Source: Paracyclopina nana (taxonomy: Eukaryota > Arthropoda > Copepoda > Cyclopoida > Cyclopettidae). From it: DNA of 64,000 nt. This document shows positions 26,881-62,069 of this stretch, piece by piece (the first letter of the stretch is position 1; the number at the start of each line of letters is the position of its first letter). The notes under the pieces were generated by a model that was not told where the DNA came from, ran no database searches, and saw only the letters and a list, made by a program, of their open reading frames with translations. The DNA is taken from the NCBI GenBank assembly GCA_019096065.1, contig JAGUCH010000006.1:6654001-6718000 (forward strand). Direction: 5' to 3'. Made by a program: the position numbers and the translations under genes.

Positions 26881-29800
26881 ATGGTCGTAGTGGACATGAC
26901 AGATGATCCGGGCATGAGCGCGCTCGGCGCAGCCGGCGCTGATCTGAGGAGCGCGCTCGCGGAAGAAGAAGCGTGCGCTCCTCCATCCTCATCACTGCTG
27001 CTAACTAATGGCAATGGTAGCATCAATAACAATCAAGATTTGTTGGTTGTGGCACCAACCGATTCCTCCTCCTCAGTTGGTGAATCAAAGTCATCTTCAT
27101 CAGCACTCAATAATTGGCACGTCATTGGCAATAGCTACCCCCCGGCCGCAGAGTCAGGGATCGAATCCAGGCCGAGCTCGGCCTCTTCAGCTGTCATCTA
27201 CAGCGCGGCCTCCGAGGCCGCGGCGGCGGCGGCGGCGGCAGCGGCGGCGGCAGCAGCGGCGGCGGCAGCGGCTGCCATAGACATTGACACCTACTTCATA
27301 AGCAGGGGCTCAAACGGATTCTTCAATCCGACGACCTCCACCAATCATTCGGCATCACCTCCACCTCAGATGCAAACTTCATATCAGCCTCACCAAGGTA
27401 TACTGAGAGACGAGGCCGACAGTTGACTCATTATGACCAAATTTGACTGATTCTGACTTAATCTAACGCTGCCCGACTCAGTCAGACTCAATGTGACTCA
27501 GTCTGACTAGTTTGACTCTGGCCCGGTTCCAACAAGGAAAATCAGCATAGTCAAGGGACGGAACTTGACTTTTTAGCATAGTCAGGTCACAGCTAGCTCG
27601 CGCGCTCAGCTCAACCTGACTAAACTGGTTTACCGTACTACACTATGCTCATATCCCATGTTGGAACCGGGCTAGAGACTTAATATGACCTAATTGGACA
27701 CAGCTCGACTTAATTTGTTTCAGTCAGATCTTGCTTGACTCAGTTTCACCTTAATCAGTTTGACTCAATCTGGCTCAATCTTAGTCAATCTGGTTGAATC
27801 TGAGTCGGTTTGACTCATTCTTACTCAATTTGATTCATTCTGACGCAATTTGACTAATTTATCCGAATTTGACTTGAGATATTAGGATTCCATCTGACTG
27901 GGTCAAGCTTGGCCGGACTGAGACAAATCTGGTTGCAGTCAAGCTGAGTCTGACTAAGTCAAGCTGAGTCTGACTAAGTCAAGCTGAGACTGACCAAGTC
28001 AAGCTGAGCCTAACCAAGTTACCCTTGGAGTCTGGCCGAGATAAGCTGAGTCTGACAGAGTCAAGCAGAGTCTGAAAGAGTCAATCTGAGTCTGAAAGAG
28101 TCAATCTGAGTCTGAGAGAGTCAAGCTGAGTCTGAGAGAGTCAAGCTGAGTCTGAGAGAGTCAAGCTGAGTCTGAGAGAGTCAAGCTGAGTCTGGTTCAA
28201 ATCAAGCTGAGTACGACCGAGTCAAGCTGAGTCTGACCGAGCCGAGCTGAGTCTCACAGAGTCAAGCTGAGTCAGACCGAGTCTAGTTAAGTCTGATTGA
28301 GTCAAGTCATAGCCCAGTTCCAACACATAGTATAGTACGGTAAACCAGTTAAGTCAGGTTGAGCTGAGCGCGCGAGCTAGCTGTGACCTGACTATGCTAA
28401 AAAAAGTCAAGTTACGTCTGCTGACTATTCTGATTTTCCTTGTTGGAACCGGGCTCATGTCAAACAGAGAGCTAAGTCAAGTTGAGTCAAATTTGTGCAA
28501 CTGAGACCCCAAAGAGTCACACTGAGTACAGTTGGCGGTAATTTCAAAGTATCGCTATGTTTTTTCCGATTTTTGCACATGAGCAAAGGTAATTGGAATA
28601 ATAGAGATCTGTGGTTCGATGTCTGCGAGAATTGAGGTTGTTATCTGCTTGAAAAACAGCCAAATGGTCAATTTCAAGCGAAGAAACAAACATGAGAGGA
28701 ATATTTTTTCTCTTTCTCAAACAGATCAAGATAATCTCGCTCTTCTTGTCACAAGAATATCAACTAATGCAGATTGTCAAAAATAAAAGACCCAAAATGG
28801 GCATTTCATGGCATTATTTGGCTGATTTATTTCAACTTAACCGTAAATTGTTTAATCCTGTTGGGTCTATGAACTATTCGAGTCAATGAACCCATTTGAT
28901 CCAATGAGCTCATTTGAGCCATGAGCCAAAGATGATGCCATGAGCCAATGAGCTCATTTGAGAGCATGAGTGTATATGAGCCCTCAGAGCCGATTTGATA
29001 GCATGAGCCAGTGAGCTCAATTGAGCCCATGAGTCTATTTGAGCACCCAGAGCCTATTTAATACAATGAGCCAATGAGCCCATTTGAGCCATGAGCTAAT
29101 TAGATATCATGAGCCAATGAGCCCATTTGAGCCATGAGCCAATTTGATACGATGAGCAAATGAGCTCATTTGAGCCCATTTGAGCCATGAGCCAATTTGA
29201 TACCATGAGCCAATGAGCTCATTTGAGCCCATGAGCTCAATTGAGCCCACGAGCTCATTTGAGCCCACGAGCTCATTTGAGCCCACGAGCTCATTTGAGC
29301 CCACGAGCCTCTTAGGGTCCTCAATTCAGATTCCATTCAGTCCTTCGAGTCAATGTGAGTCAATTACATTTTCCCGCTCTTTTTTCAGGCTCACGATCTC
29401 CAGTCAGAAGTTCAGCCAGTTCCGCGTTTTACCCGCAACTTCACTCAATGTGGAACTTCAGTAGCGGGAGCAACATGCCCTCGGGCTCCTCGGGCTCCAC
29501 GAAGGACTCGTCCTCGGGCTCGGTCCTCGGGGGCTTTGGCTACCCGCCCACTCCGCCCATTGACCTCAAATCCATCGACAATCATCAGCAACAGCAGCAG
29601 CAGCAACAGCAGCAACAGCAGCTGCATCAAGATTACCTTCAGCATCAGGATCTCGAGTTGCCCTCGTTGACCTCCCTTGCGGCCTCGGAGGCCGCCGCTG
29701 CGGCAGCCTCGGGCTCGTCGAAGCAAGACCACCTGATGGCCTCCCTAGGTTTCCCGTCCTACAGTGCGACCTCCTCGGGTTCGAATCCCGCTTCATCCAG

Positions 29801-32800
29801 GAAATTCCATGAAGGTAAGCCTTAAATCATATTTAGGCTATTGTGACTTAAAGTGACTTGGAATGACTTAAGCTTGTCTTAAATTTGACTTTAATAAATT
29901 TAGCACAAACTGCTTTTTTGACTTTAAAAGTCTTTGCTTTGTCTCAAAATAACATTTTTTTTTCACTCAAAATGACTTGAATTGACTCAAAATGGCTTTA
30001 AACATAACAACTTTGTTTGACACAAAACTTATTCCTTTACTTAAATTGACTTTGTTTTGACTCAAAATGACTTTATTTGACTCAAAATGGCTTAACAATA
30101 ATTATTTTGTTTTGACCTAAATTGACTTTGTTTTGGCTTATTTATGTGACTTTTATTGTCTATGAAATGGCTGAAAATGGCATCAGCTGGCTCTTCTATT
30201 GACTTAGTTTTGACTTCAAAATGACTTAGTCATGACTTTTTGTGCGACTTTTCGCAGTATATTATCATAGAATATTATTAAAAAGATAGAATAACGAGGT
30301 GCAAAATGTATTAGGCAATAACATGGTGACCTCGAACTACTTAAATGAGTCAGCTGTCGTGACCTCTGGATCAGCTGCTGGGTCAATGGCCTACCCTTAT
30401 TTTACGAGCCCTGGGGTTGACCTGTATGCGGGCTATAATAATCAGGGGCAAAGTTCAGCTGCTTCGTCAGGCGTTTTCTCTAGCAAAACGTTGCAGCCTT
30501 CAAGGCCAAGGTCAAAGTCCAGAGCCAATGCTGGTAAGGCTACTACTGTAACAACTGCTGGTGTTGGTCACACTTTTTAATGCGGTGTTCATCTACTGAA
30601 CAACGAATTTCTTAGATGAACACCATGATGCACAGCCATTACACATAACAATTCTTCACGGTTATGGTTTTCACATTTCGTAACACAATGCACAGCAATC
30701 TGAGCTAATTGTTTAATTATCGGCTATTACAGTTAAAATTAATTACGCAATGGTTTTTACGCTTTTACAGGGCTCATTTTCGTTCTTTTGGCAAAAAACA
30801 TATATTTTTGGCCAAAAATGAAGTTTTGAGGCACTTTAATGTAATAAAGAGGTCACAGGCCTTGCCCAGGCGCTAATAGGCCTTGTTCTTTTTGGCCATT
30901 ATCAGTGCAATTTTTTTGCATCCATCGATGGAATCAGCGCCATAAATTCTGTCAACTTTTGCATTCCAGACTTCAATCAATGCAACAAATTGCAACGTTT
31001 ATCTCACACTAGGAAATGGCTCAATTTGTCTATACCAAAAATAAAGTGATCCACTTTTTCAGTCTGGTATCAATCATCTGCAGCCCTTTTTTATGCCACA
31101 ATCTCATCATTATAATACTCCGTTGATAAGAGTTGTTTTCAATATGGACCAGCTAGGGAAAAAATGCGGAGATTCCTTTTTAAGCACAAAAAACTGGATA
31201 ACGCCCAAATCAATATGGGGTAAAAAGTTGCTTAATTAGAGTATGCTTTAATTCCTTGGAAAGTGACGCCATTTGGGTGACTCATTCCCCTGCTATTTAG
31301 GCACTTTGACTTAAAAAAGAAAGCAATTCTAAGAAATAGCAAAATTGTCTTCTTGTGCCAAAAGAGTCTCATTATGGCAAAAAGTCTCTTTTGCCTTGTT
31401 CATGAATGCATTTAGGTATTACAAGGTATATTAAGGTATAATTTGATATAAGATGAATTAACTATTGATTTTGCTCAAAATGACTAAGATGAGTCCATGA
31501 GTCTCAGTACGCCTCATTGAGCCTCGCTGAGTCTCATTGAGACTAAGAAGTTAAGCTGAGTCGAGTTGAGTCGTGTCTAGTCTCGATGCACTGCACTGAG
31601 CCTCAATGAATCCCATTGAGAATAATTGAGTCTCAATTTACCCTACATTCCTCATTGAGCCTAATAAGTCTAATTAAGCCAATGAAGTCCCATATGGCCT
31701 AAAAATCCCATTGAGCCTAAAGATTCTTATTGAGACTAAGAAGTCCCATTGAGCCATGAAGTCCCATTGAGCCATGAAGTCCCATTTAGTTTAAAAAGTC
31801 TCATTGAGCCTAAGAAGTCTAATTAAGTCTATGAAGTCCCATATAGGGTAAAAAATCCCATTGAGCCTAAAAATTATCATTCAGACTAAGAAGTGACATT
31901 GAGCCATGAAGTCCCATTTAGTTAAAAATGTCTAATTGAGCATAAGGAGCCTCATTGAGCCTAAAAAGTGTCACGGAACCTAAAAAGCAACACAGAGGTC
32001 GAAAAAGTCCCACAATGAAGTATTTATTAGCCGTTTTTTGCATGTCATGGGGTAAATGCACTGAAGATTGCACAGTGGAATTTTTTCTGCGAAAACTCGC
32101 GCGCGTTTGGCACTCTATCGCATCCTTTTTAGTGCCAATATAACTATAAAAGAGTTGCACTGCTGCTGCTGCTGCTGCTAAACTATAACGAAAAAGCACA
32201 TCCGGATGAAATGAAATCCTGTAATTAACACATTTTCCTTCTTGTACATAAAATACCATACTGATTTCTATCTTTCCTGGGAATAAAAATGAAGGAATTT
32301 CAGCTGTAAAGTAACGAAAAAAGGGTTGAAACAAGCATAAATAAAAACACGCCCCTTCGCTCTTATCTTCATCTTTTTGGTTGAATTGCTAAAAAATAAT
32401 ATATTTTTCATGCCAAAAAAAATCAAATTTTTTTGTACCTACAGAGGGCCGTGAATGCGTGAATTGTGGCGCCACTTCCACTCCCTTATGGAGGCGAGAT
32501 GGAAACGGCCATTATTTGTGCAACGCTTGTGGCCTTTACTACAAAATGAACGGACAAAATCGACCTTTGATCAAGCCAAAGAGAAGACTGGTAAGCAAAC
32601 CTTAAGCGCAGCTTTTTTTCTTGCAAACATCACTATGCTCCATCAAGAATGAGTCTTGAAAATATGTCCCATAATCGTTGTGTCTCAAAAGTTTCACGCA
32701 GTCCCATTGCATCCGAAAAAGTCCCATAGCGTTTTAAAGTCTTATTTGGTACTTGTCTAGTTTGAAAAGTCTCATGTCATCTTATAAGTCTCATACTTTA

Positions 32801-34154
32801 ATGAGTCTCATTTCACCTTAAAAGTCTCATTTCCCCACGAAAATGTCCCATTCTGTCAGCAAAGTCTCATTTTGCTTAAAAAATTGCAATTATCCACTGT
32901 GCAAGCCGAATAGTTCAAAAAGCGCTAATTTAGGGTAGTCCAGAAATTCCTCCGCCGAAACTCTGAAATGTTAATTGGTCTCCCAAGTTGAATTCAGAAG
33001 CTTTTATAAGGCAATTAGTTGTTAATGGTTTTCCGCGAAATCAGATCAGTGTTGGCACGTGGTTGAATAGCGCGTAATCTGATGATGGAATTAACCGGTT
33101 TTTGTTGTTTTTCCTCCGCAGCAATCGTCCGCTCGAAGAGAGGGGACAACCTGCGCTAATTGCAAGACAACAAACACGACTTTGTGGCGCCGAAATCCGA
33201 GCGGCGAGCCGGTGTGCAACGCCTGCGGTCTCTACTACAAGCTACACAACGTAAGTCACGCCATGACCCATGAGTCATGACACATGATTTAAGCCGCGAG
33301 CTTAAAAAATATTTTTATATTTATGACTCTTTGGTCATGACTCAAAGGTCACGACTCATAGCTCTTAGGTCATGACTCATAGGTCATGACTGAAGCTCAT
33401 GGTTAACGAATATGGCTCACGACTCATGACTCATAGGTCATGACTCATAGGTCATGACTCATAGGTCATGACTCATAGGTCATGACTCATAGGTCATGAC
33501 TCATAGGTCATGACTCATAGGTCATGACTCATAGGTCATGACTCATAGGTCATGACTCATAGGTCATGACTCATAGGTCATGACTCATAGGTCATGACTC
33601 ATAGCTCATGACTCACGACTCATGACCCATAGGTCATGACTCATAGCTCATGACTCATAGCTCATGACTCAGATCTAGTTGTTCATTGCTTATTGCAAAG
33701 TGCTGCTCTTCGTTGGGTCCTTTTTTTGAGGCATCTCAACTAAGTGAATTAGTGATTGAATTTGCCTCAATTTTTGCAGGTTCCCCGGCCTCTGACGATG
33801 AAGAAGGACGGCATTCAGACGCGCAATCGCAAATTGTCTGCAAAGAGCAAGAAAAAGCGCGGCGGTTCCATGGTCGACTTTTTCGCGCCTTTTGACTCAA
33901 AGTCGTTCTCAAGCTACGGGGGCATGACTCACGCTGCCTCACCCTACTTGGCCAATCCCATGAGTCAATATTACGGCGCGAGCTCACAGTTCATGGCGGC
34001 GGCCTCCTCGGCCTCCGCGGCCTCCGCAGCCTCCATGGCCTCAATGTACTCAACTGGACACATTTTGCAGCAACATCAACAGCAACAACAGCAGCAGCAA
34101 CAACAACAGCAACAAAGTTACAACAATCCAATTTCACCTTCCATTATGACCTAG
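26881..34154 (+). CDS. GATA gene 2: GATA1/2/3 (grain-like) transcription factor
   Basis: Two-finger GATA factor of 603 residues. Exons: 26881-27397, 29389-29814, 30315-30533, 32445-32590, 33122-33250 and 33780-34154 (junction phases 1, 1, 1, 0, 0). The start is the first ATG after an in-frame TAA at 26875. Exon 1 holds a long alanine run; exon 2 is Ser-rich with a Gln run. The peptide before the fingers, [17 protein letters not shown], matches the position and style of GATA1/2/3 proteins. N-finger (about 388-436): [30 protein letters not shown]-finger (437-479): [25 protein letters not shown]. The tail [18 protein letters not shown] is the GATA1/2/3 rather than the GATA4/5/6 form. The last exon has Ala/Ser and Gln runs and ends NPISPSIMT. 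The exon 3 acceptor (TGTATTAG at 30314) is the only one fitting the phase but is pyrimidine-poor. All five introns contain tandem repeats. It points away from GATA gene 1 across 8.2 kb. Confidence 0.95.
27521..27672. mobile_element. 152-bp MITE with GCCCGGTTCCAACA ends, copy 1
   Basis: GCCCGGTTCCAACA at the left and TGTTGGAACCGGGC at the right, a perfect 14-bp inverted repeat. Internal sequence is shared with the inverted copy at 28312, including AGCTAGCTCGCGCGCTCAGC. Confidence 0.75.
28312..28454. mobile_element. 143-bp MITE copy 2, inverted
   Basis: Same family as 27521 but reversed (GCTGAGCGCGCGAGCTAGCT), one TIR substitution (GCCCAGTTCC). The pair brackets a 640-bp minisatellite block. 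Confidence 0.75.
28870..29330. repeat. Minisatellite, unit CATTTGAGCCCATGAGCTC
   Basis: Second array in GATA gene 2 intron 1, ending about 60 bp before the exon 2 acceptor. Confidence 0.85.
29820..30240. repeat. Degenerate repeat of TTGACTCAAAATGACTT in GATA gene 2 intron 2
   Basis: Irregular 17-22 bp units with several TGACTCA words. Confidence 0.75.
31490..31990. repeat. Minisatellite in GATA gene 2 intron 3, unit CATTGAGCCTAAGAAGTCC
   Basis: About 18-20 bp imperfect units. Confidence 0.8.
32650..32885. repeat. Degenerate AAAGTCTCATTT repeat in GATA gene 2 intron 4
   Basis: Loosely spaced GTCTCAT or GTCCCAT words every 15-25 bp. Confidence 0.6.
33260..33675. repeat. 14-bp minisatellite in GATA gene 2 intron 5, unit ACTCATAGGTCATG
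   Basis: Near-perfect for about 15 units at 33420-33610, degenerate outside. Every unit junction makes ATGACTCAT, a palindromic AP-1/bZIP site. Confidence 0.95.
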
Positions 34155-34760
34155 TGAGCTTTGCTTTTATTTGGGCGCGTGAGTCAGCTGACTCACAGTG
34201 AACTGTGAGTCAGTTATTGAATATGATGACGGAATAATGACTCTATTTGTGATGATTGATAATTGATCGAGGAAATATACTGAATGACAGTTTATTGATT
34301 CCTAATTTAAGGCTCATTTGGAAGGCAAAAAACTGAGTAGAAGACTTTGTCTAAATCTGATTAAAAAACAGCCAAAAACTGAGTCAAGCCCTGAATGTCA
34401 AAAACTGAGTCAAAAACTTTGAAAGCTGAGTCAAATTTTTGCTTTAGGTAGCTACAAATACCAAAATGTGCTTCTTCTTCTCTTCAGTTGGTGGTTGCTT
34501 ATTCTGGCTTATCTTGTGACATTTCCTCTGATTGCCATCTTGCATATCCTATTTTTCTTCTTAATTGCGACCACACAACAACAGCTGCCGAAAACAAACT
34601 TTGAAGCTGCTATTCAACCTTTGAAAAATGCAACACACTTGTTTCTACAGCGAATGTGTGAATAGGCCAAAAACAGTTCAAAACAATGATGAACAAAAAA
34701 ATTTATTGGCAAGCTTTTTTGGCATAAATTGTGCGCTACGTCAAATTTTCAATAGTGTCT
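34155..34760. other. 3' flank of GATA gene 2
   Basis: Presumed 3' UTR and downstream DNA. Repeated AAAACTGAGTCAAA words at 34320-34440. No clear AATAAA was spotted close to the stop. Confidence 0.4.
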
Positions 34761-34764
34761 AGTT

Positions 34765-38931: not shown

Positions 38932-41900
38932 TCAATGGCTTTGGGTTGCTTCAGTTATTGGCTTTTTGTTCTTCCTGTTTCTGGTTTGGATGCCATTCTT
39001 CTTGATGAGATGCGCTGGCCTGTGAGCCTGAAAAAAATGAATTATTTAAAAAATATGTAATGCTTCGCTGGACTCAAATCTGCTTTTTGCCTCAAATTTG
39101 CTTTTCTCCCTCAAATTATACTTTTTGCCTCAAATCTGCTTTTTGCCTCAAATCTATCTTTTGCATCTAATCTACTATTTGCCTCAAATCTGCTTTTCTG
39201 CCTCAAATCTGCTTTTCTGTCTCAAATCTACTTTTTGCCTCAAATCTACTTTTTGCCTCAAATCTACTTTTTGCTTCAAATCTACTTTGTGCCTCAAATC
39301 TGCTTTTCTGTCTCAAATCTACTTTTTGCCTCAAATCTACTTTTTGCTTCAAATCTACTTTTTGCCTCAAATCTGCTTTTTGCCTCAAATCTGCTTTTCT
39401 GCCTCAAATCTGCTTTTCTGTCTCAAATCTACTTTTTGCCTCAAATCTACTTTTTGCCTCAAATCTACTTTGTGCCTCAAATCTACTTTTTTCTACAAAT
39501 CTGCTTCATTGCATCATTTTGCGTTTTGTGTTAGCTAGTTCTCACGTAAAGCAAAGTAAAGCTGAGCAGAGCAATTCGCTTATGAGGCTCTCAACTCATT
39601 TTTGGCTGAGCTGATTGGCAACAAACTCCTTTGGTATCATGAGGATAACATGGCAAATGTACAAGACTAATACGGTCCAAGTCCGAGGCTGATTCAAAAT
39701 CGATATTTATATGGCTTTGCTTAAAGCTCGCTGCCAAGATAAGCTAAGCAAGGCAAAATGTCCTCTGGTTAGCGGCCTCGGATCTAGACCAAATTCATCA
39801 TGGACAATTGCGATGCCCTAAACATGAAACTTGCAAAATTTGGCACCAATCCTCTCAGTAATTACTGAGTGAAGAGCCTTTTCAGCGCTTTGCTCAGCTC
39901 AGCTTTGCTTCGCTTAGCGAAAATGAGAACGGCCAAACGAAACATTATAAATGCGAGGATTTGACCAAGAAACACTTATTGAAGTCACATAAAGCCAATA
40001 TTGATGTCAAATAAGATTTAATGGGTGTTTTTATTTTAACCTGGAATTTAAATGGGTTGATTGCTTTGCCAGATAAATAATGATGACTTTTTTTTTGCCG
40101 TCTAGACATTGCGAAATTGATTGGGTACATTTTGGCAGTGTTGCAAAAAAAAAAGATAACGCAAACAACTTCTTTCCATAGGTTTTTTAGTGCTCAAACC
40201 TTTTTTTTGGCAGAGAGCAAAAAAATTATTGTTGATTGGTTTCATATTTTGATGGATGGCCATTATTTCAATACATTATCTGATTGAAGGGGCAAAAAAG
40301 GGGAACAAGAAAAGTACATTTTCATTAAAATTGCGGCTCTTTTGAGCAACTTTGGGCTCTTTTTCTGTCTAAAATTGGACATTTTTGTCAACTTGGCGGT
40401 GGGTTCACTACATACGGCAGTGAAGCGAAAATCCCTGTATTTTGCTGAGTTTTGGCGTGCGCTCGCATCTACCGTACAATAATGGATTTTTTCGTCACAT
40501 GTGAAGAATAATGCTCATTATTGTACAGTTGGCAACTTCTTCAAGCTCAATTTCTTCATCAACTAAAAAATTGACTTGACCAGGATTCGAACCTGGGCCG
40601 GCTTAGTGAGAGGTCTGCACTATACCATTGTACTATCATGGCACACACAGATAAAGTACACTCTGGCATACTACAAAAATTACATTGTGTTTTAAGAAAG
40701 TCTTCCAAATCAATCCTAATGAAGAACATTAAAACATGTCTGAAACATTCTCAGTCAATTTTAAGCCAAACTCGTTATTTTGGTGTTTTTGGGAAAAATT
40801 CTGGCTAAATAGTAAATATCCCTCTAAATATCTGGTTACCCTGCAAGTGCTGAGCTCTTGCTGGAGATGCGCGTGCGCGATTGACCGCAAAGCTTGACCT
40901 GCAAACGAGCTATCTTTTTTAAGGCTAATTTCTTGATTAAATTGATAGCTTTTTAGCATTTAAGAATACTATAGCGACTTAAAACCGTCACGAAGCTGAC
41001 AAAAATGTCAATACTGTCCTGATGACGAGTCCATATAGGGTTTTTCGCTCATTCGTAGTAAAATTTCAGATCACTCGTGGCTTCGCCACTCGGTGATCTT
41101 TCATTTGACTACTCATGAGCGAAAAACCCTATATGGACTCGTCATCAGGACAGTATTGTTACATTTTTCCATTTGGCTTTCAAAAGCAAGTTGAAGTCTG
41201 AAATGAAGTCAAATGGAAAAAGTCTAGTTGACCTTAACAATGGAACATTTACTCACGTTGTGTAAGTTGTAATAAAGCCCACAAGCATTGCAGACAACGA
41301 TTTTGTCAGCTGTTATTTGCCGCCATAGCGTAGTTTTTTCCGCATGACAATTGGAGCATTTTTTGCCCTTGTGTTTTGAACTGGTCTGGAAAAAAAGCAA
41401 CCTATTATTGACTAGCTCAAGTTGAACAACTAAAATGTGCTGAACTTGACTTCAGTCAGTACCGATGGCTTAAAGCCATGTGAACAGACTTAAGCCAAGT
41501 CAACTGACTTTGGTCAAGTCAACTGAATAAAGTCAAGCCAACTGACTCAAGTCAAGTCAACTAAATAAATTCAAGTCAACTGAATAAAATCAAGTCAACT
41601 AAATCAAGTCAAGTCAACTGACTCAAGTCAAGTCAACTGACTCAAGTCAAGTCAACTGACTCAAGTCAAGTCAACTGACTCAAGTCAAGTCAACTGACTC
41701 AAGTCAAGTCAACTGACTCAAGTCAAGTCAACTGACTCAAGTCAAGTCAACTGACTCAAGTCAAGTCAACTGACTCAAGTCAACTGACTCAAGTCAACTG
41801 ACTCAAGTCAACTGACTCAAGTCAACTGACTCAAGTCAACTGACTCAAGTCAACTGACTCAAGTCAAGTCAACTGACTCAAGTCAAGTCAAATGACTCAA

Positions 41901-43383
41901 GTCAAGTCAAATGACTCAAGCCAAGTCAAATGACTCAAGTCAAGTCAAATGACTCAAGTCAAGTCAAATGACTCAAGCCAAGTCAAATGACTCAAGTCAA
42001 GTCAAATGACTCAAGTCAAGTCAAATGACTCAAGTCAAGTCAAATGACTCAAGTCAAGTCAACTGACTCCGGTTATTTCGCTCAACATTCACAAAAAGTA
42101 GCTACTTTGCTTGAAATGTTGAGCGTTTGCTTAGCTATTTTCACCATAGCTTAGCTTTTTCCGGCAATATGAGAACGGCCTAAATTCAAGTCAACTGACT
42201 CAAGTCAAGTCAACAAACTCATTGAGGAAATCATTTAAACGGACTTGATTTTGAAAAATGAAATTTTACCACTCTTGTGTGCTTTGGCCTTTCGAGCGGC
42301 CTCGATGATCCGCTGTTGTTGCGTTGGTAAAGGCCACACGCGTTGCAAAGATGGCCGCCGCTCTTTGGGTCGCGGCGCCACAAAGGCGTTTTGACCACAA
42401 AACAATTAGAGCAGAATCTGTCACAGAGCCCTAATAGGGTGAAAAACAACAATCAATTATTCCACACTGAGAATAAAGAGACGCCTTAATTATCAGGGAA
42501 GGAATGTGCTCACCCTCTTGGTCATCTGGAACGATGTCTTCAACAAATTGGTCGCTAATTTCTGAAGTTGGCTGGCCTGAAAATGGAAAAAACCAAAAAA
42601 CTGTTCAATCAGTTGACTGAAGCAGATGACTAAAAAATCGTATTTTTTGTAGAATCAAGTCATCTTTAAATAGACTCAAGTCATCTTTATTTGACTAAAG
42701 TCATCTTTAAATGACTCAAGTCATCTTTAAATGACTCAATTAATCTTTTACTAAAGTCTTGTTTTAATGACTCAAGTCACCTTTTAATGACTCAAGTCAC
42801 CTTTTAATGACTCAAGTCACCTTTTCATGACTCAAGTCATCTTTTGATGACTCTAGTCATCTTTTAGACATCTTTAATGACACAAGTCATCTTTTGCGAC
42901 TCTAGTCACATTTTATGACACAAGTCATCTTTTGAGACTCAAGCCAAAAGATCTTAAAAATGACTTAAGTCACTAAGTTGATGATATGACTTGGGTCCAA
43001 TGTGACTTTTTTTAATCAATCTTACTTTCGTAGAAATAGCAAAATGAGCCATAATCTTGCTGATAGTGCCAATTCTGATAATTGTTTGGCCCTAAAAAAT
43101 CCTGATTTGGGTCGTAGTTGCACCAATTATGAAAGTTGATCATTTTATATGTGTGGTCACGGCGAGACTGAGATTGAGACTGATTGTTGCGAATATTTGA
43201 CCTACAGCCAATTTTACATTATGGTTGTTTACCTGATTGAATTGCGCGTAGCATTTCCAATTGGACGAGTCCATATTGCACCTGATTCACCAAATAGCCG
43301 TAATAAGTCAACAAAGCTTCTTGCATTGCACCTTGAGCCGTTGCGCTTATTTGACCCACTGCTTCACCCTCTTTTGTTTGGTC
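38932..43383 (-). CDS. GATA gene 3: small divergent two-finger GATA factor
   Basis: Minus-strand exons: 43383-43233, 43091-43026, 42576-42514, 42430-42270, 41385-41257 and 39027-38932. All junction phases match (1, 1, 1, 0, 0), giving 221 residues from the first supported exon. A start codon is not certain: an ATG directly abutting a donor at 44254-44252 fits phase 0, or translation begins at the internal ATG 43326. The first exons encode [11 protein letters not shown] and then [16 protein letters not shown], with no recognised domain. N-finger: [21 protein letters not shown]-finger: [27 protein letters not shown]. Both have spacing CX2CX18CX2C rather than the animal CX2CX17CX2C. The basic tail is [19 protein letters not shown], with a stop 13 codons later. 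The C-finger exon is 129 nt and ends at LHN, exactly as in GATA gene 2, which supports shared descent. No Ala or Gln runs are present. It is probably a fast-evolving paralogue. Confidence 0.85.
39065..39525. repeat. 18-bp minisatellite in GATA gene 3 last intron, unit CTCAAATCTACTTTTTGC
   Basis: About 24 units with CTGC/CTAC variants. Long open frames on both strands are repeat artefacts. Confidence 0.9.
39550..39930. repeat. Diverged copy of the dispersed foldback family
   Basis: AAGCAAAG at the left; inverted AATTTGGCACCAATCC, GAGCC and GCTTTGCT at the right, ending near AATGAGAACGGCC as in the fragment at 42100-42180. Confidence 0.55.
40572..40642 (-). tRNA. Degenerate tRNA-like sequence (probable tRNA pseudogene or SINE)
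   Basis: Minus strand. A perfect B-box/T-arm CCAGGTTCGAATCCTGG, a D-arm-like GTACAATGGTATAGTGC and a TTTTTT run right after the 3' end, as in Pol III genes. The acceptor stem has two mismatches and the anticodon arm does not pair, so it is unlikely to be a working tRNA. Lies inside GATA gene 3's last intron. Confidence 0.45.
41009..41158. mobile_element. 150-bp foldback element with arms of about 40 bp
   Basis: CAATACTGTCCTGATGACGA at the left is repeated inverted at the right, and the match runs on through CCTATATGG and GAGCGAAAAACCC. A nested inner hairpin reads GATCACTCGTGGC/GCCACTCGGTGATC. No coding capacity. Confidence 0.75.
41450..42090. repeat. 19-bp minisatellite in GATA gene 3, unit CTGACTCAAGTCAAGTCAA
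   Basis: About 30 units, with an internal run of a 12-bp subunit (CTGACTCAAGTCAA minus one repeat) at 41770-41860 and an AATGACTC variant later. TGACTCA is in nearly every unit. Confidence 0.95.
42640..43010. repeat. 20-bp minisatellite in GATA gene 3, unit AATGACTCAAGTCATCTTTT
   Basis: Imperfect units in the intron between the exons at 43026 and 42576. Confidence 0.85.
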
Positions 43384-43399
43384 CTAAAGAATAGAAAGC

Positions 43400-43930
43400 T
43401 CTTGAAGAACTTGAATTTTCGCCTATTAATTTTGACTTGAACTTGAGTCAATTTTGACTTTAACTTGAGTCAATTTTGACTTTAACTTGAGTCAATTTTG
43501 ACTTGAACTTAAGTTCATTTTAACTGGAGCTTGAGTCAATTTTGACTTTAACTTGAGTCAATTTTGACTTGAATTTAAGTCAATTTTGACTTGAACTTAA
43601 GTTCATTTTAACTTGAACTCGAGTTCATTTTACTTGTACTTGAGTTCAATTTAACTTAAACTTGAGTCAATTTTGACTTAAACTTGAGTCAATTTTGACT
43701 TAAACTTGAGTCAATTTTGACTTAAACTTGAGTCAATTTTGACTTAAACTTGAGTCAATTTTGACTTGAACTTGAGTCAATTTTAGCCTGAACTAAATAA
43801 TAGACACAAATAAACTCACGAAGGCTCATTTTTGCTTGAATGGGCTCATTTTTACTCAAATTGAATCTCTTAGAGACGCAAATGGGCTCATTTTGACTCA
43901 ATTTGACGTGTTTTGACTCAAAATGACTCA
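43400..43930. repeat. 22-bp minisatellite 5' of GATA gene 3, unit GAGTCAATTTTGACTTAAACTT
   Basis: About 20 units ending close to the acceptor of the first supported GATA gene 3 exon. Confidence 0.9.
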
Positions 43931-45686: not shown

Positions 45687-48215
45687 TTACATTTCAGTAT
45701 ATTTGAATTGATGCCAAATGTGGGCCAAAATGGAAGCGGATGTAATCAGAAATTGATTGCCAAAATACATGCTGTATCCATGATTAGGTGCATTACGTAA
45801 GATACATTCCTCAAATTTGGTGTAATCTTGTTCACTAATTGTGCAAAGGTGGTAAGTTTGGCACAACTTGTCACACTCGTAGTCCACCTTTTGCACACTG
45901 TTCAGCTCATAATACAGGCTGAATACATCCTCATTACTAGCCATGTCTTCAAAAACTGTGTCGAAATCATTGATACTCAATCCGGATACATTGTACGCAT
46001 CTGGGAAGATGTATTCAATTTCCCAAGTAAGTTGGCCCTCTGCGTTGGCCCTACTCAAATTCGCATAGTATTGGGTGTACTGGAGTATTTCTCCGGATAC
46101 AGCGTTGTATTTGTACAGCCTAAGCGAAGGATTGTTTGCACCTGTCTCAGGTGCCAAGGTGGATCTCCAAGGTGTGACAGCCGGTGCCAGCAAACCCACT
46201 CCAACTGTATGGCCTGTACCATTTTTGATTAGCTTGAATGTATCCGTGTGATGATGGCCATACAGTTGAGGATGCAATACATCTGAATACGCGACAAGTA
46301 TTGACAGCAACTTTTGGTTGTAGTTGGGTTTGAACCAAGGAAATCCATGTTGCTCCTCCTCCTTGAAGTACTGGTAGAACCGTTCAAATTTTCCTGGTGG
46401 AATGTGCGCAAAGAGCAGAACCTGAAATTAATGTTTGAAAAAAATCATTTTAAATCAATCACTTAGCATTGATTTTCATCTTGCAAATGCTCTCACAACT
46501 GTTTTCCAAACTGGAAAACTAGTCAACCTTTGCAATTTTGATGGAAAAAAATGACTAAATTTCCACCGTAGTTCAGGTGTTTTTGTTAATGTACTGCTGA
46601 ATTCTTCAAATGTGTTATCACTCTTTCATGGCATAAGCCAGTTCCCTATTCAAATGGCATTTAGTTAAGCGAGTGTAGTAAAAATAATACGACTCTTAAT
46701 AAACTGAGTGGATTGGTGCCAACATTTGAAGAATTACTCAGCGTACCCTAATGATTGTTCATGTATGAACTCATCCGGATTGATGTTCGTTAAATTGAGA
46801 CCGGTTAATCTGGCTATATAAGCTAAACATGATCAATTACTTCACTTTAGTTCAGCCTTAATAATTTAAGATAGCTGTCTCAAAAATAACAAGACATTAG
46901 ATGGTTGCGTTTAAACCATCTGATCATGTTTGCTTATGATGTTTCTAAGCAACAAGCTTGCGAAGGACCCTGCTTAACTTGAGAGAGCTTTGCTTAGATT
47001 GAATAAAGTATGAGAACGAGTTTGAGTTGTTGGTATTCCAAATTGATTGTTTACCTTTCTGGATTGATTTCTTGCATCGCTTAAAACTTGTTCCAGCCAG
47101 ACAAATTGGCCCAGTGGATCATTCGAGCCCATCAACTGGTTATTGCTCCTGTAGTAAATATTGGTGTTCAGCCCCACCAGCAAATAAGGCCCATACGTGG
47201 CCTTATAAAAGGCCCCATTGGCCTTATACTGCTCCACAACTGCCTCAAATCCGGAAGCACTTTTGAAGATGTCAGCTGTTGCGGCATACAGGTCATCAGC
47301 TGGGTCATCCTTGAATTGGTTGTGCGGGAAGGCATCATGGTTGCCCAGGACTGGAAACAAGTCCAGACTTGTCGCTTTTAAGGCTTCGAATGATAAGCGA
47401 ATGGCTTCATAAGTCAGCTCACTCGACGACAGTTCATTGGCAATATGAGCTGTATCATCCCTTCAAAGTATTCATCATTTTAAGTTACTAAATAAGTACT
47501 TATGATGATCAGAAAGTGAGTTACTTTGTAATAACACCTCAGAAGAATGGATTATTTTGTCAAAAATGAATTTTTTCTACAAAAATGGATTTTTTCGGTG
47601 TTAATGTTTTTTTTCCGTAAAAATGGATTATTCGTCAAAAATGGTTATTCTCGCCAAAAATTGATGTAAATTGATATTTTCGTTTAAAAACTAGATTTTT
47701 TCGTCAAAAATGGATTTTCTCGTCAAAAATGGATTTTCTCGGCAAAAATGGATTTTCTCGGCAAAAATGGATTTCCTCGGCAAAAATGGATTGCCTCAAC
47801 AAAAATTCATTTTCTCGACAAAAACTGATTTTTTCGTCAAAAATTGATTTAATGAGATTTCTCCTAAAATTAAATAGAGGTATTCTGTCAGAAAATGAAT
47901 TTTTTACCCAGTCCATAAAATGAAGGGCAGTTTTCCGTCGACGGTCAAATCAGCTGATGTCTCATTAATGAGCCTGGTGACTTCATTCAGCAAAGCCAGG
48001 GGTGAGTCACATTGGTAATTGCCAAATTTTCCCGGATTGTCAGAGCCCCAACAAGTCTTGTAGTCATAATCGCCCAAGAAGTAGTCCCTACCCACTTTGG
48101 CGGAGTAATTCAAATCCAGGTGGAAATCAGCGACATGCCAAAAATAAGCCTCATTCTTAAGCCCTTGAGCTACAATGAAGCTCAAAAGTAGCAAGTAACA
48201 ACAAATGAGTTTCAT
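45687..48215 (-). CDS. Secreted acid sphingomyelinase-like phosphodiesterase (SMPDL3 type)
   Basis: A calcineurin-like metallophosphoesterase of the acid sphingomyelinase family, secreted or lysosomal. Family members hydrolyse nucleotide or lipid phosphodiesters; the substrate here is not known. Minus-strand exons: 48215-47908, 47460-47055 and 46421-45687 (phases 2 and 0), giving 482 residues, complete. Signal peptide about 1-18 (MKLICCYLLLLSFIVAQG). Metal-binding motifs in order: DxH at D30/H32 (WHVADFHLD), WTGD at 101-104, GNHD at 142-145 (FPVLGNHDAFP), H244 in LLFAHIPPG, and GHHH at 292-295 (LYGHHHTD). Cysteines near the C-terminus fit the family C-terminal domain. No saposin domain is seen, which argues for SMPDL3 over true acid sphingomyelinase. 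Intron 1 holds a 19-bp minisatellite; intron 2 has fragments of a dispersed repeat. Only 55 bases separate it from NAA10. Confidence 0.95.
47530..47870. repeat. 19-bp minisatellite in phosphodiesterase intron 1, unit CGTCAAAAATGGATTTTCT
   Basis: About 15 units; ends about 40 bp from the exon 1 donor. Confidence 0.9.
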
Positions 48216-48270: not shown

Positions 48271-50444
48271 TTACTTCTTCTTCTCCTCGCTATTTTTCGA
48301 TGCCCTAAAAAAAGAGTCCGGGTCCGCGGGCGTGATGTCCATCAATTGGGACCAAGCCACCAAGTTGCGACGCATTGCGTACGCATCTTCACCATCTGCG
48401 TAATATTTTGGCTCGATTTCGCTGATCCTGCAAAAACATAAAAAAAGTCACCTTTTGAAAGCTAGAAATGCCTAAAAAAGGCACAAAAACTAAAGCAAAC
48501 AATTTAGATATCGTAAAGACAAGCAAGGTCTAGGCTGAGCCAGGGAGAACTAGGGAAGATAAGGAAAAGCTTGATACTCCTAGGCATGACTAGGGTGACA
48601 AATTTAGAACTGGGAAGGATGAGGCATCACTGGAGATGTTATAGGATTTTAAAGAATGAAAGATGCGCGAGTGCATGAAAGACTAGCCAAAACTTATGTG
48701 AACAATTAAAGAACTGAAAAAGACAAATGCTAAAGCAAAAAACTAGTGAAATTCGTGTTAGTACGGCAATCGAGCTATTGAATCCATCAAATCCGGATGC
48801 CATGTTACAAATCTTTCCAAATTCTTCATGGTTTTCTAAAAAAGCATCCTAGCCTAGCCTCATCCTGTCTATTTCATGTTTAGCTTATCCTAGGTCTTTC
48901 TTGCTCATTATAGTTCATTAGAGCTTTCTATTTGTTTGTTGTCCGTCCTAGCTGATTCCAGTGCTTCCTAGGTTATCCTAATGCTTCATAGGTTAATCTA
49001 GTATTTCCTAGGTTATCCTAGCTCTTTGCAGGCCGTCATAGTTCTTCCAAGCTTATCCTAGTTCTTTATAGCCTATCATAGTTATTCCCTAGCATGCCCT
49101 AGATCTGAGTGATTTCTCCTCGTAATTCCTAGTTTCCCATAGTTCATCCTTATTATTCACCAGCCTAACTTAGGTTGTAGGCCTTAGCAGTTCCTCCTAG
49201 CCTAACCTAGTTCTTCCTAGCTTATCCTAGTTTCTCCTGGCTTATCCTAGTTTTTCCTGGCTTATCCTAGTTCTTCCTAGTTTTCCCTGGCTTATCCTAG
49301 TTCTTCCTAGCTTATCCTAGTTTTTCCTGGCTTATCCTAGTTCATCCTAGCTTATCCTAGTTCTTCCTAGCTTATCCTAGTTCTTCCTAGCTTAACCTAG
49401 TTTTTCCTGGCTTATCCTAGTTCTTCCTAGCTTCTCCTAGTTCTTCCTAGCTCATCCTAGTTCTTCCTAGCTTATCCTAGTTCTTCCTAGCTTATCCTAG
49501 TTCTTTCTAGTTTAACCTAGTTATTCCCAGCAAATCCTCGATTCTCCTGATTCCACCTTGTAATTCCCAGTTTCCCCTCGTTCATCTTGGTTATCCACCA
49601 GCCTGACTTACTCGAACTTCAGCGCTGTTTTGTAGAGGTTGAGCGCCGCCCTGTTGCTGACCCGTACGTGCAGCGAGACGTATTTGGCGTTGAACGTTTC
49701 GACCATAGCGCGCGCAGTTTGGTCCATGAGTTTTTGCGCGAGTCCAAGGCGCCGATGCGAGCGCTTGACCGCCAAGCTGGTGATGTGTCCGTGCGGGTCA
49801 TCGTCCGTCTCCTCCTCCATTTTGGCGAGGACGTAGCCCACGATTTGGCCTCGGTTGTCCTCCGCTACAAAGCTCAGCTGAGGCCACGACAACCCGTGGT
49901 ACATGTAGTACTTCATTTGGTAGTTTTCGGGCAAGCAGAGCAAGTTGCAATGCTGCATGTTCATCAGGTCACTCGTCTGTAAAATATGAAATTATTGATA
50001 TTAAAAAAATGATGAAGCGGAGTGTAGCGGTAACTGTGGAACATAACTTGGATTATACCGATTTTTGGAGGTTATTGCAATGAACACAAATGGAAAATTT
50101 TCAATGCGATTCATTTTTTGAGATGAAGCGGAGCGTAGCGGAAAATGAAGCGGAACTTGGATTTTATTGATTTTTTGAGTAGTTTTCGGATGTGGAGCAA
50201 ATTGATCTTACTCAAAAAGGATCTTATATAAAAAATGAAGAGAAGTGTAGCGGAACTTGTGTAGCGTGTGAACACGTTGTGAAGCGAAGTGTAGCGAAGC
50301 GGTTTTAATGATGTTAAGCAAATATCACGAAATCCAGGCGCATTTTTGAATAAAGCATAAAGAAATTAATTAATGTAGCGGCGTTTCATGTAGCGTGAAC
50401 GCTTCAAGGAGTTCGTTACTTACTGTAGCGCAACGGATATTCAT
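48271..50444 (-). CDS. NAA10: N-alpha-acetyltransferase 10, catalytic subunit of NatA
   Basis: Transfers acetyl from acetyl-CoA to protein N-termini; it works with NAA15 at the ribosome as NatA. Minus-strand exons: 50444-50424, 49976-49612 and 48427-48271 (phases 0 and 2), giving 180 residues. Exon 1 encodes only MNIRCAT. The start is fixed by alignment to the invariant MNIR opening of NAA10 proteins. Exon 2 continues [48 protein letters not shown] and [19 protein letters not shown]. The GNAT acetyl-CoA loop RRLGLA is at residues 82-87. Exon 3 gives [19 protein letters not shown], a short tail, then SKNSEEKKK and a stop. Known metazoan NAA10 tails are longer (human 235 residues), so the tail is short here. 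Both introns carry minisatellites. The stop lies 55 bases upstream of the next gene's ATG on the same strand. Confidence 0.96.
48840..49570. repeat. 20-bp minisatellite in NAA10 intron 2, unit TTCTTCCTAGCTTATCCTAG
   Basis: Regular from 49200 to 49520. On the minus strand (NAA10 sense) each typical unit reads CTAGGATAAG, giving at least a dozen phased GATAAG cores. Confidence 0.9.
50000..50420. repeat. Degenerate GAAGCGGAGTGTAGCGGAA repeat in NAA10 intron 1
   Basis: Irregular repeats of GTAGCG and GAAGCG, reaching almost to the exon 1 donor. Confidence 0.65.
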
Positions 50445-51615: not shown

Positions 51616-51619
51616 GTCT

Positions 51620-52539: not shown

Positions 52540-52960
52540 AAATTAAGTCCACATGAGTCAAAATTGATCAACAAAATGACTCATTTAAGTCAAAATGACT
52601 CATTTAAGTCAAAATGACTCATTTAAGTCAAAATGACTCATTTAAGTCAAAATGACTCATTTAAGTCAAAATGACTCATTTAAGTCAAAATGACTCATTT
52701 AAGTCAAAATGACCCATTTAAGTCAAAAAGACTCATTTAAGTCAAAATGACTCATTTAAGTCAAAATGACTCATTTAAGCCAAAATAACTCAAATCAAAT
52801 TTAAGTTACAATGACTTACTTAAGCCAAAATAACTCAAATCATTTAAGTCAAAATGACTCATTTAAGCCCAAATGACTCATTTAAGCCAAAATGACTCAT
52901 TTAAGCCAAAATGACTCATTTAAGCCAAAATAACTCATTTAAGCCAAATCGATCATAAAT
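52540..52960. repeat. 19-bp minisatellite, unit AATGACTCATTTAAGTCAA
   Basis: About 20 units. Each has ATGACTCAT, the palindromic bZIP site. Confidence 0.95.
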
Positions 52961-54829: not shown

Positions 54830-55410
54830 CTTAAACCAACTAAGTTAACCTAAACGTAACTCAGTTAACTGAGTTAAGACTAATTCTACTCATCTAAGTC
54901 AGCTCTATTTTATTTTTAGCTTAAGTCAAAGTTGACTTAGTTAAGTCGAAATTGACTGAGTTAAGTTGAGTCATAGTAAATTGAGCTAAGTCAAGGTTTA
55001 ACTCTGTTGAGTCAATGCTGACTCAGTAAAGTCAAAGTTAATTAGATTAGTCAGAAGTTATAGTCAAAATCCAATATTAAATCAGTTCAGTCAAACTTTA
55101 CAAAGACAAGTAAAACTTGGCTAAATTAGTCCAAAGTTAAGTTTGTTAAGTCAAAGTTAAGTTTGTTAAGTCAAAGTTAAGTTTGTTAAGTCAAAGTTAA
55201 CTCTGTTAAGTCAAAGTTAACTATGTTAAGTCAAGGTTGACTCTGTTAAGTCAAAGTTAACTCTGTTAAGTCAAAGTTAACTCTGTTAAGTCAAAGTTAA
55301 CTCTGTTAAGTCAAAGCAACGTCAACTCAAAGTTAAGTCAGATAAGTCAAAGTTAACTAGATTAATCAAAAGTTAACAATGTTAAGTCAAACTTTTTAAC
55401 TCGTTTCAAT
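54830..55410. repeat. 20-bp minisatellite, unit GTTAAGTCAAAGTTAACTCT
   Basis: Regular at 55130-55310. The unit contains AGTTAACT palindromes. Confidence 0.9.
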
Positions 55411-57720: not shown

Positions 57721-57969
57721 CAAACACCACTAAGATTGACATTTTTCAATTTTTGGCACTTACGAGAAAAAACCAACTTTGTGATGATGAAGTAGGAAAT
57801 GTTGGTGATTCGGTGATGATTTTTGTGTGTGCGAGTTTGTTTTGCTTGGTGTAGTAGCCACAATGAGGCCACAAAACCGAGGCTACTGCAGAGTACTAAG
57901 TCATGCAATGTGGCCAGAGGCTGCGGTTTTTGCACTGCACACAATGAACACTGAATTTTTCGGAAACTA

Positions 57970-58383
57970 CTTAGCACACTGTGAGTCGATGAAAATTGCA
58001 ACATTGTTATCCCGATTGTTGCAACACTCAAACCGAGTGACTCAATTGCAAAAGTGGCACTTTTACCGAATTTTTTGCGGGATTCACAAAAATTGCTGTA
58101 ATTTTGTGCTATTTTGTGAATTTTTGTGCACTTTACAGTGTGAGTCATTGAAAATTGCATCGACATTTGTGAGTATGTATTTTATGTCTAAGTTATTATA
58201 TTTCATTTTTACTATAGAAGGTTTTTGGCAAATTTTGCTTTCTTTACAGTGTGAGTCAATGAAAATTGCAAATATAACTTTTGTGCAAGTTTGTGCTACT
58301 GATACAGAGTGAGTCAGTGAAAATGGTGGTAACTCGCTTGATTGGCCAACCAATCAGCAAAAAAAAAAAAAAAAAAAAAAAAA
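57970..58383. repeat. Four GTGAGTCA(A/G)TGAAAAT repeats ending in a 25-base A run
   Basis: Related segments start at about 57980, 58138, 58248 and 58308 with unequal spacing, then GATTGGCCAACCAATC and A25 (58359-58383). The A run could be the 3' tail of a retroposed sequence. Confidence 0.5.
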
Positions 58384-59455: not shown

Positions 59456-59459
59456 CAAA

Positions 59460-59755: not shown

Positions 59756-61370
59756 AGTTTTTTAGTCAAAAAAAGCTCTCCGAGTAAAAAAAAAAAAAAA
59801 AAACTGGGCTAAAAGTTAAGGCTCTGAGTCAAAACCTAAGCTCAGAGCTTTATAAAATACTCTTGGTCCCCTGCCAAGCCTTTAGAAAACACATAATCCA
59901 AACCAAATAAGTTGAACTTCCATGGGTCACTCAGTACTTTGGCCGAGATGCATTGGCCTGTGCAGCAAGCTTTGAGCAATAGGAGCGCAGTGAACAATCG
60001 TCCCCCGACATCTGGAGTAGTGTAAGGCTAGCACAGCACTAGTACAACTTTTCTTGATCCCCCATGATTTATATCGGCTCAAAGAAGAGCTAGCTGTTAT
60101 ATGGAGGAGAGTCTAACTGTAGTAGAAAAGGAGGAAAAATCTTTCTCTTTTTTTTTGACCAAATATTTCCTCCACTTTTCTGAATGTTTATCTTCTTCTC
60201 CTCATGGGCTTTCAAAGGGTTTGTTATTCCAGGTGAAAACAACTGTTTTCTTTTCCCACATATTCGAAGCATGAGAATGGGCCAAAAATTAAGCGCAATT
60301 AATTTTTGAGGGGGCGAAAAGCAAATAGAGTCGATGGAAAATCATCCTTGCGCAAATCATCCACGATTTTCTTGTGCTGATGTGAGCTACAAGTGTTTTG
60401 TTACTTCAAACCTTGGATTGACGTCAACCTCTTTACGGCTTTTTTTACATGCAAAAGCGATGTGTTTATAATACTGAAATTGACATAATTTGAGATGGGT
60501 TTCAAAAATAGAATATATTTTTGCTCTTCCCATGTACTTTGTGTGTAAATAATGGTACATAGTACAAGGAAATGTCTGTCAACTCCGAAAACCATTTATT
60601 GGTGGGCTCAGACTGTGACAACTCACTTCCAAGTTTGTAGAAAAAAATAGAAACCTACAATTAAAAGACATATCCTTTGTGGTATTTCATTTCAGGTGTG
60701 TGGAAAAAAACCAGGACTTCTATTTTTAAGCAAAGTTCACCTTTGTTCGTCATGTAAATTAAGCCTGAAAGTGTTTGACGTCATTTTAGGTTTTGGTGTT
60801 ACAAAACACTTGAATGTCAGATTCACACAAAAAAACCATGCATGATTTGAATGTGGGTGATTTTCCATGATGGAAATTTGCTTTTCGCCTCTTTGAAAAC
60901 TAATGTGAATTTGTCGCTAGAACATTTTTGCAAAAAACGCCTTTTATACTAGCACGACACAAAAACCATCTTTTGGAGAATGAAAAAAAAGTGCAGAAGA
61001 TTTTACGATGCATGCGTTGTAAATTCTTCAAAAAGTGGCCAAAGCCAAAAGTTGGCCGGAAAAGTGCGGTTGTAAATGGGTCTATCTGATACAGGGTGGC
61101 GATTTTTTTTTCTGACTCACACTGTATCACTGATGACACCAACAGTGTGGCTCAGAAAGGAAAAAGTACATGCTTGAAAAATAGCCTTTTCTTGTGACCT
61201 CAAACCTGACTTAAATCTGGCTGATTTTCAATGCAGCTAAATTGTGTCCAAACTTAAGTTATTGAGCTCGTATGACTTCAATGGACTTGAGCAGACTTTG
61301 ACTACCTTCTACTGACTAAAGCGAACCTAATGGACTTGAACAGGCTTAAGTTGACTTAAATGGTTAAAAA
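59756..61370. other. Non-coding, no gene seen
   Basis: A17 run near 59785. No supported gene. Confidence 0.45.
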
Positions 61371-61380
61371 AATTGAAATG

Positions 61381-62069
61381 GACTTGAGTCATGGACTTGA
61401 GTCATGGACTTGAGTCATGGACTTGAGTCATGGACTTGAGTCATGGACTTGAGTCATGGACTTGAGTCATGGACTTGAGTCATGGACTTGAGTCATGGAC
61501 TTGAGTCATGGACTTGAGTCATGGACTTGAGTCATGGACTTGAGTCATGGACTTGAGTCATGGACTTGAGTCATGGACTTGAGTCATGGACTTGAGTCAT
61601 GGACTTGAGTCATGGACTTGAGTCATGGACTTGAGTCATGGACTTGAGTCATGGACTTGAGTCATGGACTTGAGTCATGGACTTGAGTCATGGACTTGAG
61701 TCATGGACTTGAGTCATGGACTTGAGTCATGGACTTGAGTCATGGACTTGAGTCATGGACTTGAGTCATGGACTTGAGTCATGGACTTGAGTCATGGACT
61801 TGAGTCATGGACTTGAGTCATGGACTTGAGTCATGGACTTGAGTCATGGACTTGAGTCATGGACTTGAGTCATGGACTTGAGTCATGGACTTGAGTCATG
61901 GACTTGAGTCATGGACTTGAGTCATGGACTTGAGTCATGGACTTGAGTCATGGACTTGAGTCATGGACTTGAGTCATGGACTTGAGTCATGGACTTGAGT
62001 CATGGACTTGAGTCATGGACTTGAGTCATGGACTTGAGTCATGGACTTGAGTCATGGACTTGAGTCATG
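61381..62069. repeat. Near-perfect 13-bp array, 53 units of GACTTGAGTCATG
   Basis: Fifty-three consecutive units with no variant seen by eye. Every unit contains TGAGTCA. Such homogeneity implies recent expansion or active homogenisation. Confidence 0.97.

Follow-up and report, generated by a model that had tools for sequence, protein, structure and literature searches.

Distal minisatellites of Paracyclopina nana that share TGASTCA may form a regional family built from short half-words

We describe here the minisatellites in a 64-kb stretch of DNA from the copepod Paracyclopina nana (the window; C6:6654001-6718000), many of which carry the palindromic heptamer TGASTCA, where S is C or G, a site of the AP-1/bZIP type. 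TGASTCA is one word of a regional vocabulary and is itself mostly explained by the pentamers of the arrays; it looks like a by-product of shared wording and not a preserved site. The account that we favour, with somewhat better than an even chance of being right, is that the arrays are a regional family of distal minisatellites made from AGTC and GACT half-words in both orientations and spread by local duplication. It draws on the regional concentration of the arrays, the fall of similarity with distance, the distal site, the self-similarity of the units as a group, and the lack of extra conservation at the heptamer.

The host genome of 91.95 Mb is assembled into 10 contigs, nine of them large and one (C10) of 268 kb, and the window lies about 0.5 Mb from the chromosome end on C6, which is 7186283 nucleotides long. 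Tandem repeats found with Tandem Repeats Finder (TRF) occupy 59 merged loci and 13.07 kb, or 20.4% of the window, versus 4.2% of a comparison sample of 23 stretches of 10 kb (230 kb) chosen from the same genome regardless of content. The periods have a narrow spread, with 34 of the 55 window loci of period at least 9 bp falling at 18-22 bp. Array-level tests used 54 window arrays and 46 sample arrays, five of the 59 window loci (periods 1, 3, 3 and 6, and one GC-rich 9) and ten of the 56 sample loci (period below 9 or above 45) being left out.

Excess of the heptamer and its conservation

The window holds 170 copies of TGASTCA where equal base frequencies predict 7.8, in agreement with an earlier note on this DNA that had claimed well over 100 copies against about 8 expected; the span that it gave, 27425-62069, is also sound, with 168 of the 170 beginning inside. 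TGASTCA ranks second among the canonical heptamers of the window, behind A7, and leads the 24 palindromic heptamers of equal composition with its 170 copies and 10 arrays, the runner-up being ACTSAGT with 31 copies and 4 arrays. It is present in 10 of the 54 circularised unit consensuses, the most of any heptamer, versus null means of 0.5 for units taken from single-copy window DNA and 1.2 for shuffled units; the highest null count for any heptamer was 7 arrays. The excess is thus real for arrays, beyond copies alone, and chance or base composition is ruled out as its source for copies and arrays alike. Within or overlapping TRF loci there are 140 of the copies; the 30 that lie wholly outside, in 50.9 kb of the window, include several in degenerate repeats; three control palindromes have 19, 13 and 8 copies there.

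In the 230-kb sample TGASTCA occurs 44 times, in place 1317 among heptamers, and no sample array has two or more copies. We rejected the heptamer as a trait of arrays genome-wide, the sample arrays mostly sharing A/T-rich words and one of the 46 having TGASTCA in its unit. The window arrays that concern us, none of which is assigned a strand, are as follows, with the evidence in brackets:

27475..27518, no strand: 10-bp array, consensus GACTCAGTCT, 1 TGASTCA (TRF)
27761..27859, no strand: 20/40-bp degenerate array with TGACTCAAT words, 2 TGASTCA (TRF)
27937..28306, no strand: 20-bp array AGTCAAGCTGAGTCTGACAG with related words, 2 TGASTCA, consensus without it (TRF, column test)
29957..30093, no strand: 20-bp degenerate array TTTATTTGACTCAAAATGAC, 3 TGASTCA (TRF, column test)
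33362..33671, no strand: 14-bp array TCATGACTCATAGG, 18 TGASTCA, in an apparent intron of a GATA-factor gene (TRF, splice-like borders, finger hits)
34328..34418, no strand: 12-bp degenerate array AAAAACTGAGTC, 2 TGASTCA (TRF)
41483..42069, no strand: 19-bp array, some units being 14-bp variants, 26 TGASTCA and, counting both strands, 24 copies of GACTTGAGTC (TRF, finger hits)
42655..42943, no strand: 20-bp array, 6 TGASTCA and, counting both strands, 6 copies of GACTTGAGTC (TRF)
43428..43784, no strand: 22-bp array AATTTTGACTTGAACTTGAGTC, 11 TGASTCA, related words, exact GACTTGAGTC absent (TRF, column test)
52572..52948, no strand: 19-bp array CAAAATGACTCATTTAAGT, 13 TGASTCA (TRF, column test)
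54921..55391, no strand: 20-bp array TTAAGTCAAAGTTAACTCAG with related words, 3 TGASTCA, consensus without it (TRF, column test)
61378..62074, no strand: 13-bp array ATGGACTTGAGTC, 53 identical copies (TRF, column test)

The last of these has 53 copies without a single change and, unlike its neighbours, is therefore very young or homogenised. The six ranges that the earlier note named first contain 20, 26, 6, 14, 14 and 53 copies of TGASTCA, and the two where it saw the word in part (29820-30240 and 54830-55410) contain 3 and 3. Its statement that almost every unit has the word is true of 33424-33671, 41483-42069 (26 sites in 30.5 copies) and 61378-62074, is weaker for the array at 52572-52948 (13 of about 19) and for that at 43428-43784 (11 of about 16), and fails for 42655-42943 (6 of about 15) and 54921-55391 (3 of about 23). 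Two arrays do have the extended palindrome that it reported, ATGASTCAT being present 31 times and nearly all of these at 33270-33650 and 52576-52911. The spacing of TGASTCA is mostly 13, 14, 19, 20 or 22 bp; these are the array periods, and helical phasing of sites was accordingly dropped.

To judge selection on the heptamer we counted departures from the unit consensus column by column in nine arrays, two of which have no consensus heptamer and were not counted; the arrays at 27475, 27761 and 34328 stood outside this test. Over the resulting seven of the ten heptamer arrays the heptamer columns depart in 59 of 1118 positions and the other columns in 100 of 1576, or in 59 of 745 and 100 of 1252 when the perfect 61378 array is taken out. 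The array at 33424-33671 differs in the direction expected of a functional site (1/126 in the heptamer versus 7/122 elsewhere), and that at 41483-42069 in the opposite one (19/216 versus 20/363). Selection on the heptamer was rejected on these figures, there being no extra conservation across the seven arrays.

Shared words, relatedness and the making of units

Many arrays have shorter words in common. CTCA is in 30 of the 54 window arrays where the two null sets give 10 and 14, AGTC is in 26 (nulls 7 and 17), ACTCA in 20 (3 and 6) and AAGTC in 15; AGTCA, GACTC and CTCAG are in 14 each, and AGTCAAA, GACTTAA, AGCTGAG, GACTCAA and ACTCAGC in 7 each. For TGACTCA itself, taking one unit per array and both strands, the count is 11, against 8.4 expected from pentamers and 10.6 from hexamers. 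Its ratio of observed to expected is 81st-82nd among the 122 heptamers seen at least three times with at least one expected, so that the full bZIP site does not stand out from whatever else the shorter words yield.

Relatedness between arrays is steeply local. Unit pairs reach a similarity score of at least 10 in 51% of cases when less than 1 kb apart (n=39), in about 8% at 1-10 kb (n=383), 6.6% at 10-30 kb (n=667) and 2.3% at 30-64 kb (n=342), and the same score is reached by 1.9% of 2484 window-versus-sample pairs and by 1.1% of 1431 shuffled pairs. A Mantel test of unit similarity against distance gives rho -0.115 (p 0.003), and within the sample 20% of the 54 pairs inside one 10-kb stretch score at least 10 versus 1.5% of the 981 others. 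Neighbourhoods also have words of their own, as judged by eye from the unit list: TGAAATA/TTTCAG at 11.5-15.4 kb, TGAGCC at 28.9-29.3 kb, CTGAGCAC at 35.7-36.6 kb, GACTCAAGTC at 41.5-42.9 kb, CCTAGCTTAT at 48.9-49.5 kb and GCCAAA at 57-63 kb.

The units resemble themselves in both orientations. As a group, the window units of 16-26 bp have direct self-similarity at z 3.7-4.5 and inverted self-similarity at z 4.9-5.1 relative to shuffles, in a test on 39 window and 19 sample units that is uncorrected for the relatedness of arrays. Direct identity reaches at least 0.5 in 16 of the 39, and in 7 of these 16 the best offset is 10. The mean dyad score is 4.73 in window units versus 3.73 when shuffled (sd 0.16), with single units at p≤0.05 in 6 of 54, and 3.62 versus 3.28 (sd 0.13) in sample units. 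When the half-word GACT is joined to its reverse complement AGTC the product is GACTNNAGTC, and TGACT meeting AGTCA gives TGACTCA.

These features are consistent with a scheme in which units of about 20 bp would tend to consist of half-words (AGTC/GACT, ACTCA and CTGAG), each about 10 bp long, placed directly and inverted. New arrays would be born near old ones through the copying of short pieces, the most probable route being break repair with foldback or template switching; slippage and unequal exchange would then extend them, and some exchange with other chromosome ends may spread the same core. TGASTCA and the decamer GACTTGAGTC would arise wherever a half-word meets its own reverse complement, and no protein reader would be needed. 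In yeast, foldback at breaks yields locally templated inverted copies, most of about 5-34 bp (PMC11724301). Such insertions are a plausible source of inverted half-words; they were demonstrated at induced breaks, whereas the process suggested here is inferred from sequence.

A decamer and the chromosome ends

Tandem GACTTGAGTC gives 194 matches genome-wide versus 3 for its reversed control. Among the matches listed, 182 of the 194 are placed in nine arrays. Five of these are in C6:6.638-7.114 Mb, three of them inside the window, while C4, C8, C9 and C10 have one apiece; none of the eight on large contigs is more than 0.55 Mb from a contig end, and those placed on C4, C6, C8 and C9 are at a single end, though the arrays are few. 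Twelve matches lie beyond the 182 placed, about 3 of these in the 61378 array. Four GACTTGAGTC arrays fall within 78 kb at the window region, and all five placed on C6 are in its terminal 0.55 Mb. As a lone decamer GACTTGAGTC occurs 572 times in the genome versus 268 for the reversed word; the window has 85 copies, 2 of them outside TRF loci, and the 230-kb sample has none. An identical 16-bp array unit is present at C10:222242-222571 and C6:7113794-7113995, and C10 may be a second copy of that C6 end.

Tandem repeats in general are more abundant distally: per 10 kb, the nine sample stretches 1 Mb from an end have 875 bp on average (median 532) and the 14 further in have 127 bp (median 120; p 0.005). 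Arrays of another palindrome, TCASTGA, lie within 1.62 Mb of a contig end in 12 of 12 cases among the matches listed, which are the first 100 of 144 and were grouped into arrays by eye.

The repeat TTAGG is the typical arthropod telomere repeat, the nematode form being TTAGGC. The last 1.5 kb of C6 (7184784-7186283) is (TTAGG)n and the first 1.5 kb (1-1500) its complement, with variants such as TTGGG. Telomere-like repeats were rejected as the source of the heptamer, the terminal 1.5 kb at both C6 ends having no TGASTCA. C4:9686585-9688084 and C1:1-1500 carry a different pentamer, (CCAGG)n and its complement, which reads AGGCC in the orientation that gives AGGTT on C6, so that one assembly contains two terminal pentamers.

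Weighing the explanations

Several observations weigh against a regional family grown from half-words. The null sets reach equal counts for some 4- and 5-letter word (34 and 20), so the excess of such words holds only against each word's own expectation. Self-similarity at p 0.05 is seen in single units in 6 of 39 cases (direct) and 3 of 39 (inverted), and the sample has the direct effect too (z 3.5), with hardly any inverted effect (z 0.7-1.7). Once the heptamer is removed, 5 of the 45 pairs among the ten units are alike at p≤0.05 (4 at ≤0.01) where about 2 would be by chance. That the arrays are unrelated, as the earlier note had it, is borne out in part but is too strong, neighbours having similar units and local words of their own. 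Comparison with seven arrays elsewhere gives 5 of 63 at p≤0.05, with about 3 by chance; two of the five are with another C6 array and three with two C1 units (2 of 9 units, from C6:6.64 Mb and C9, had no full heptamer and were left out, as was one window remainder that was too short). Outside the decamer arrays the relation between units is weak, and slow divergence of one array would not be expected to leave a common core between differing linkers. Genome-wide, tandem triples at array spacing number 1241 for TGASTCA and 248, 72 and 302 for ACTSAGT, TCASTGA and AGTSACT, control palindromes of equal composition, so that TGASTCA is 4-17 times commoner (these being copies, not arrays). Lastly, C1 has four TGASTCA arrays, grouped by eye among the matches listed, within its first 0.61 Mb, and by eye their units are unlike those of the window.

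These last three points would fit a bias in birth, the first of two possibilities raised in the earlier note: bZIP-bound sites may be open chromatin or hotspots of breaks, and repair would then amplify the site together with any flank that happens to be there. Examples of such hotspots are the Atf1-Pcr1 sites of fission yeast and the Gcn4-type sites of budding yeast. Sequence-motif hotspots are documented for fission yeast (PMC3534124). Like AP-1/TRE sites, the M26-type, bZIP-marked hotspots have the same or a similar palindromic word, whereas the word in the window is without sign of preservation. The genome-wide excess speaks for such a bias in part; however, by our own count 102 of the 1241 triples are in the 64-kb window (8% in 0.07% of the genome), and pentamers explain most of the heptamer, which is near pentamer expectation in the window arrays. 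Isolated sites are little enriched in the sample (44 TGASTCA versus 32 ACTSAGT per 230 kb), and the commoner palindrome TTGSCAA, with 77 sample copies, is in the unit of none of the 46 sample arrays, against one for TGASTCA. Other words (AGCTGAG, AGTCAAA and GACTTAA) are also common to 7 arrays each. Because the genome-wide figures are copy counts set against three controls, we leave birth bias as a doubtful alternative.

Some Helitrons, which are rolling-circle transposons, carry palindromic minisatellites in Caenorhabditis; that the window arrays would be tails or passengers of such elements is unlikely. A Helitron-related satellite family of Caenorhabditis is a multiple of the palindromic decamer AGAANNTTCT, whose layout is that of GACTNNAGTC here (PMC4595182); however, most of the ten window units are dissimilar beyond the short core.

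The neighbouring genes bear on a further possibility, that AP-1/Maf-type sites form functional clusters in the arrays and serve as distributed enhancers or sponges, perhaps for GATA genes close by. Six of eight pattern hits in the window are GATA zinc fingers, all scoring above the Pfam cut-off for PF00320:

13764, minus strand: GATA zinc finger
16460, minus strand: GATA zinc finger
32456, plus strand: GATA zinc finger
33152, plus strand: GATA zinc finger
41281, minus strand: GATA zinc finger
42336, minus strand: GATA zinc finger

Judged from pairing and strand, the six fingers mark three predicted GATA genes clustered at 13764-42413. The first of these is on the minus strand and the second on the plus strand, the third being more diverged; the tails after the first and second presumably resemble GATA1/2/3. 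The 14-bp array (33362-33671) is inside an apparent 0.5-kb intron of the second gene with splice-like borders, where one finger exon stops at GTAAGT and the next exon starts after TTTTTGCAG, and the 19-bp array (41483-42069) lies between both finger exons of the third.

Many exact palindromic sites, the position of these two main arrays between exons of GATA-factor genes, nine sites within the GATA coding exon 33893-34427 and after it (a small array holds two of the nine) and the lower rate of change at the heptamer in 33424-33671 would all agree with site clusters. However, over the seven arrays the heptamer changes as often as other columns, the 61378 array is just as perfect outside it, the sites are mostly spaced by the array period, and neighbouring arrays are related. 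This was the second possibility in the earlier note, a sponge or distributed enhancer for a Fos/Jun/Maf-type factor, and it finds no support: the heptamer diverges like the rest of the unit, the sample count is ordinary with none of its arrays having two or more sites, and neighbouring arrays are partly related. We therefore regard functional clusters as decidedly unlikely. Pairing-centre satellites of Caenorhabditis, with a given motif clustered at one chromosome end, are bound by dedicated zinc-finger proteins and are needed for pairing. A chromosome-end address system, in which arrays at particular chromosome ends would be held to a palindromic word (GACTNNAGTC with adjacent TGASTCA) by a sequence-specific protein, bZIP or other, that uses the word for breaks or homologue pairing, with array birth following the word and the rest of the unit free, is very improbable.

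Elsewhere in the window the minus strand encodes an acid sphingomyelinase C-terminal region (45687-46427) and a NAA10-like acetyltransferase (49608-49991). Pfam gave no match for the other eight window open reading frames submitted. An RNA scan of the window gave a single tRNA-like Rfam match, and ARAGORN found no tRNA in it. At 57900-58340 there are repeats about 60-110 bp apart that by eye have CAGTGTGAGTCAATGAAAATTGC-like sequence in common.

Among known systems, the arrays come closest to palindrome-rich, partly chromosome-terminal minisatellite families of Caenorhabditis (PMC4595182, PMC4039745). The short-repeat satellites of Caenorhabditis (Subirana et al. 2015, PMC4595182) include families of related arrays with frequent consensus palindromes, one family being terminal-only on autosomes and one built on a palindromic decamer. 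They share with the window arrays short tandem units, related arrays, palindromes and a terminal bias, whereas here relatedness is strongest below about 1 kb, the core is GACTNNAGTC/TGASTCA, and C6 ends in (TTAGG)n. CeRep25B of C. elegans is likewise a palindromic or near-palindromic minisatellite, clustering mainly on particular chromosomes and 75% intronic (PMC4039745); it has a single kind of 24-bp unit, in contrast to the many periods and units here with only short words in common. No earlier report of TGACTCA minisatellites was found among the open-access titles and beginnings of abstracts listed (3 of 3 and 20 of 335), which is no proof of absence.

The window serves as a warning that an excess of transcription-factor sites in repeat-rich DNA can stem from the spread of repeats and not from binding. 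The regional 'dialects' of its minisatellites, with similarity dropping steeply past about 1 kb, suggest that new minisatellites often come from adjacent ones, and this steep local relatedness is the part most worth following.

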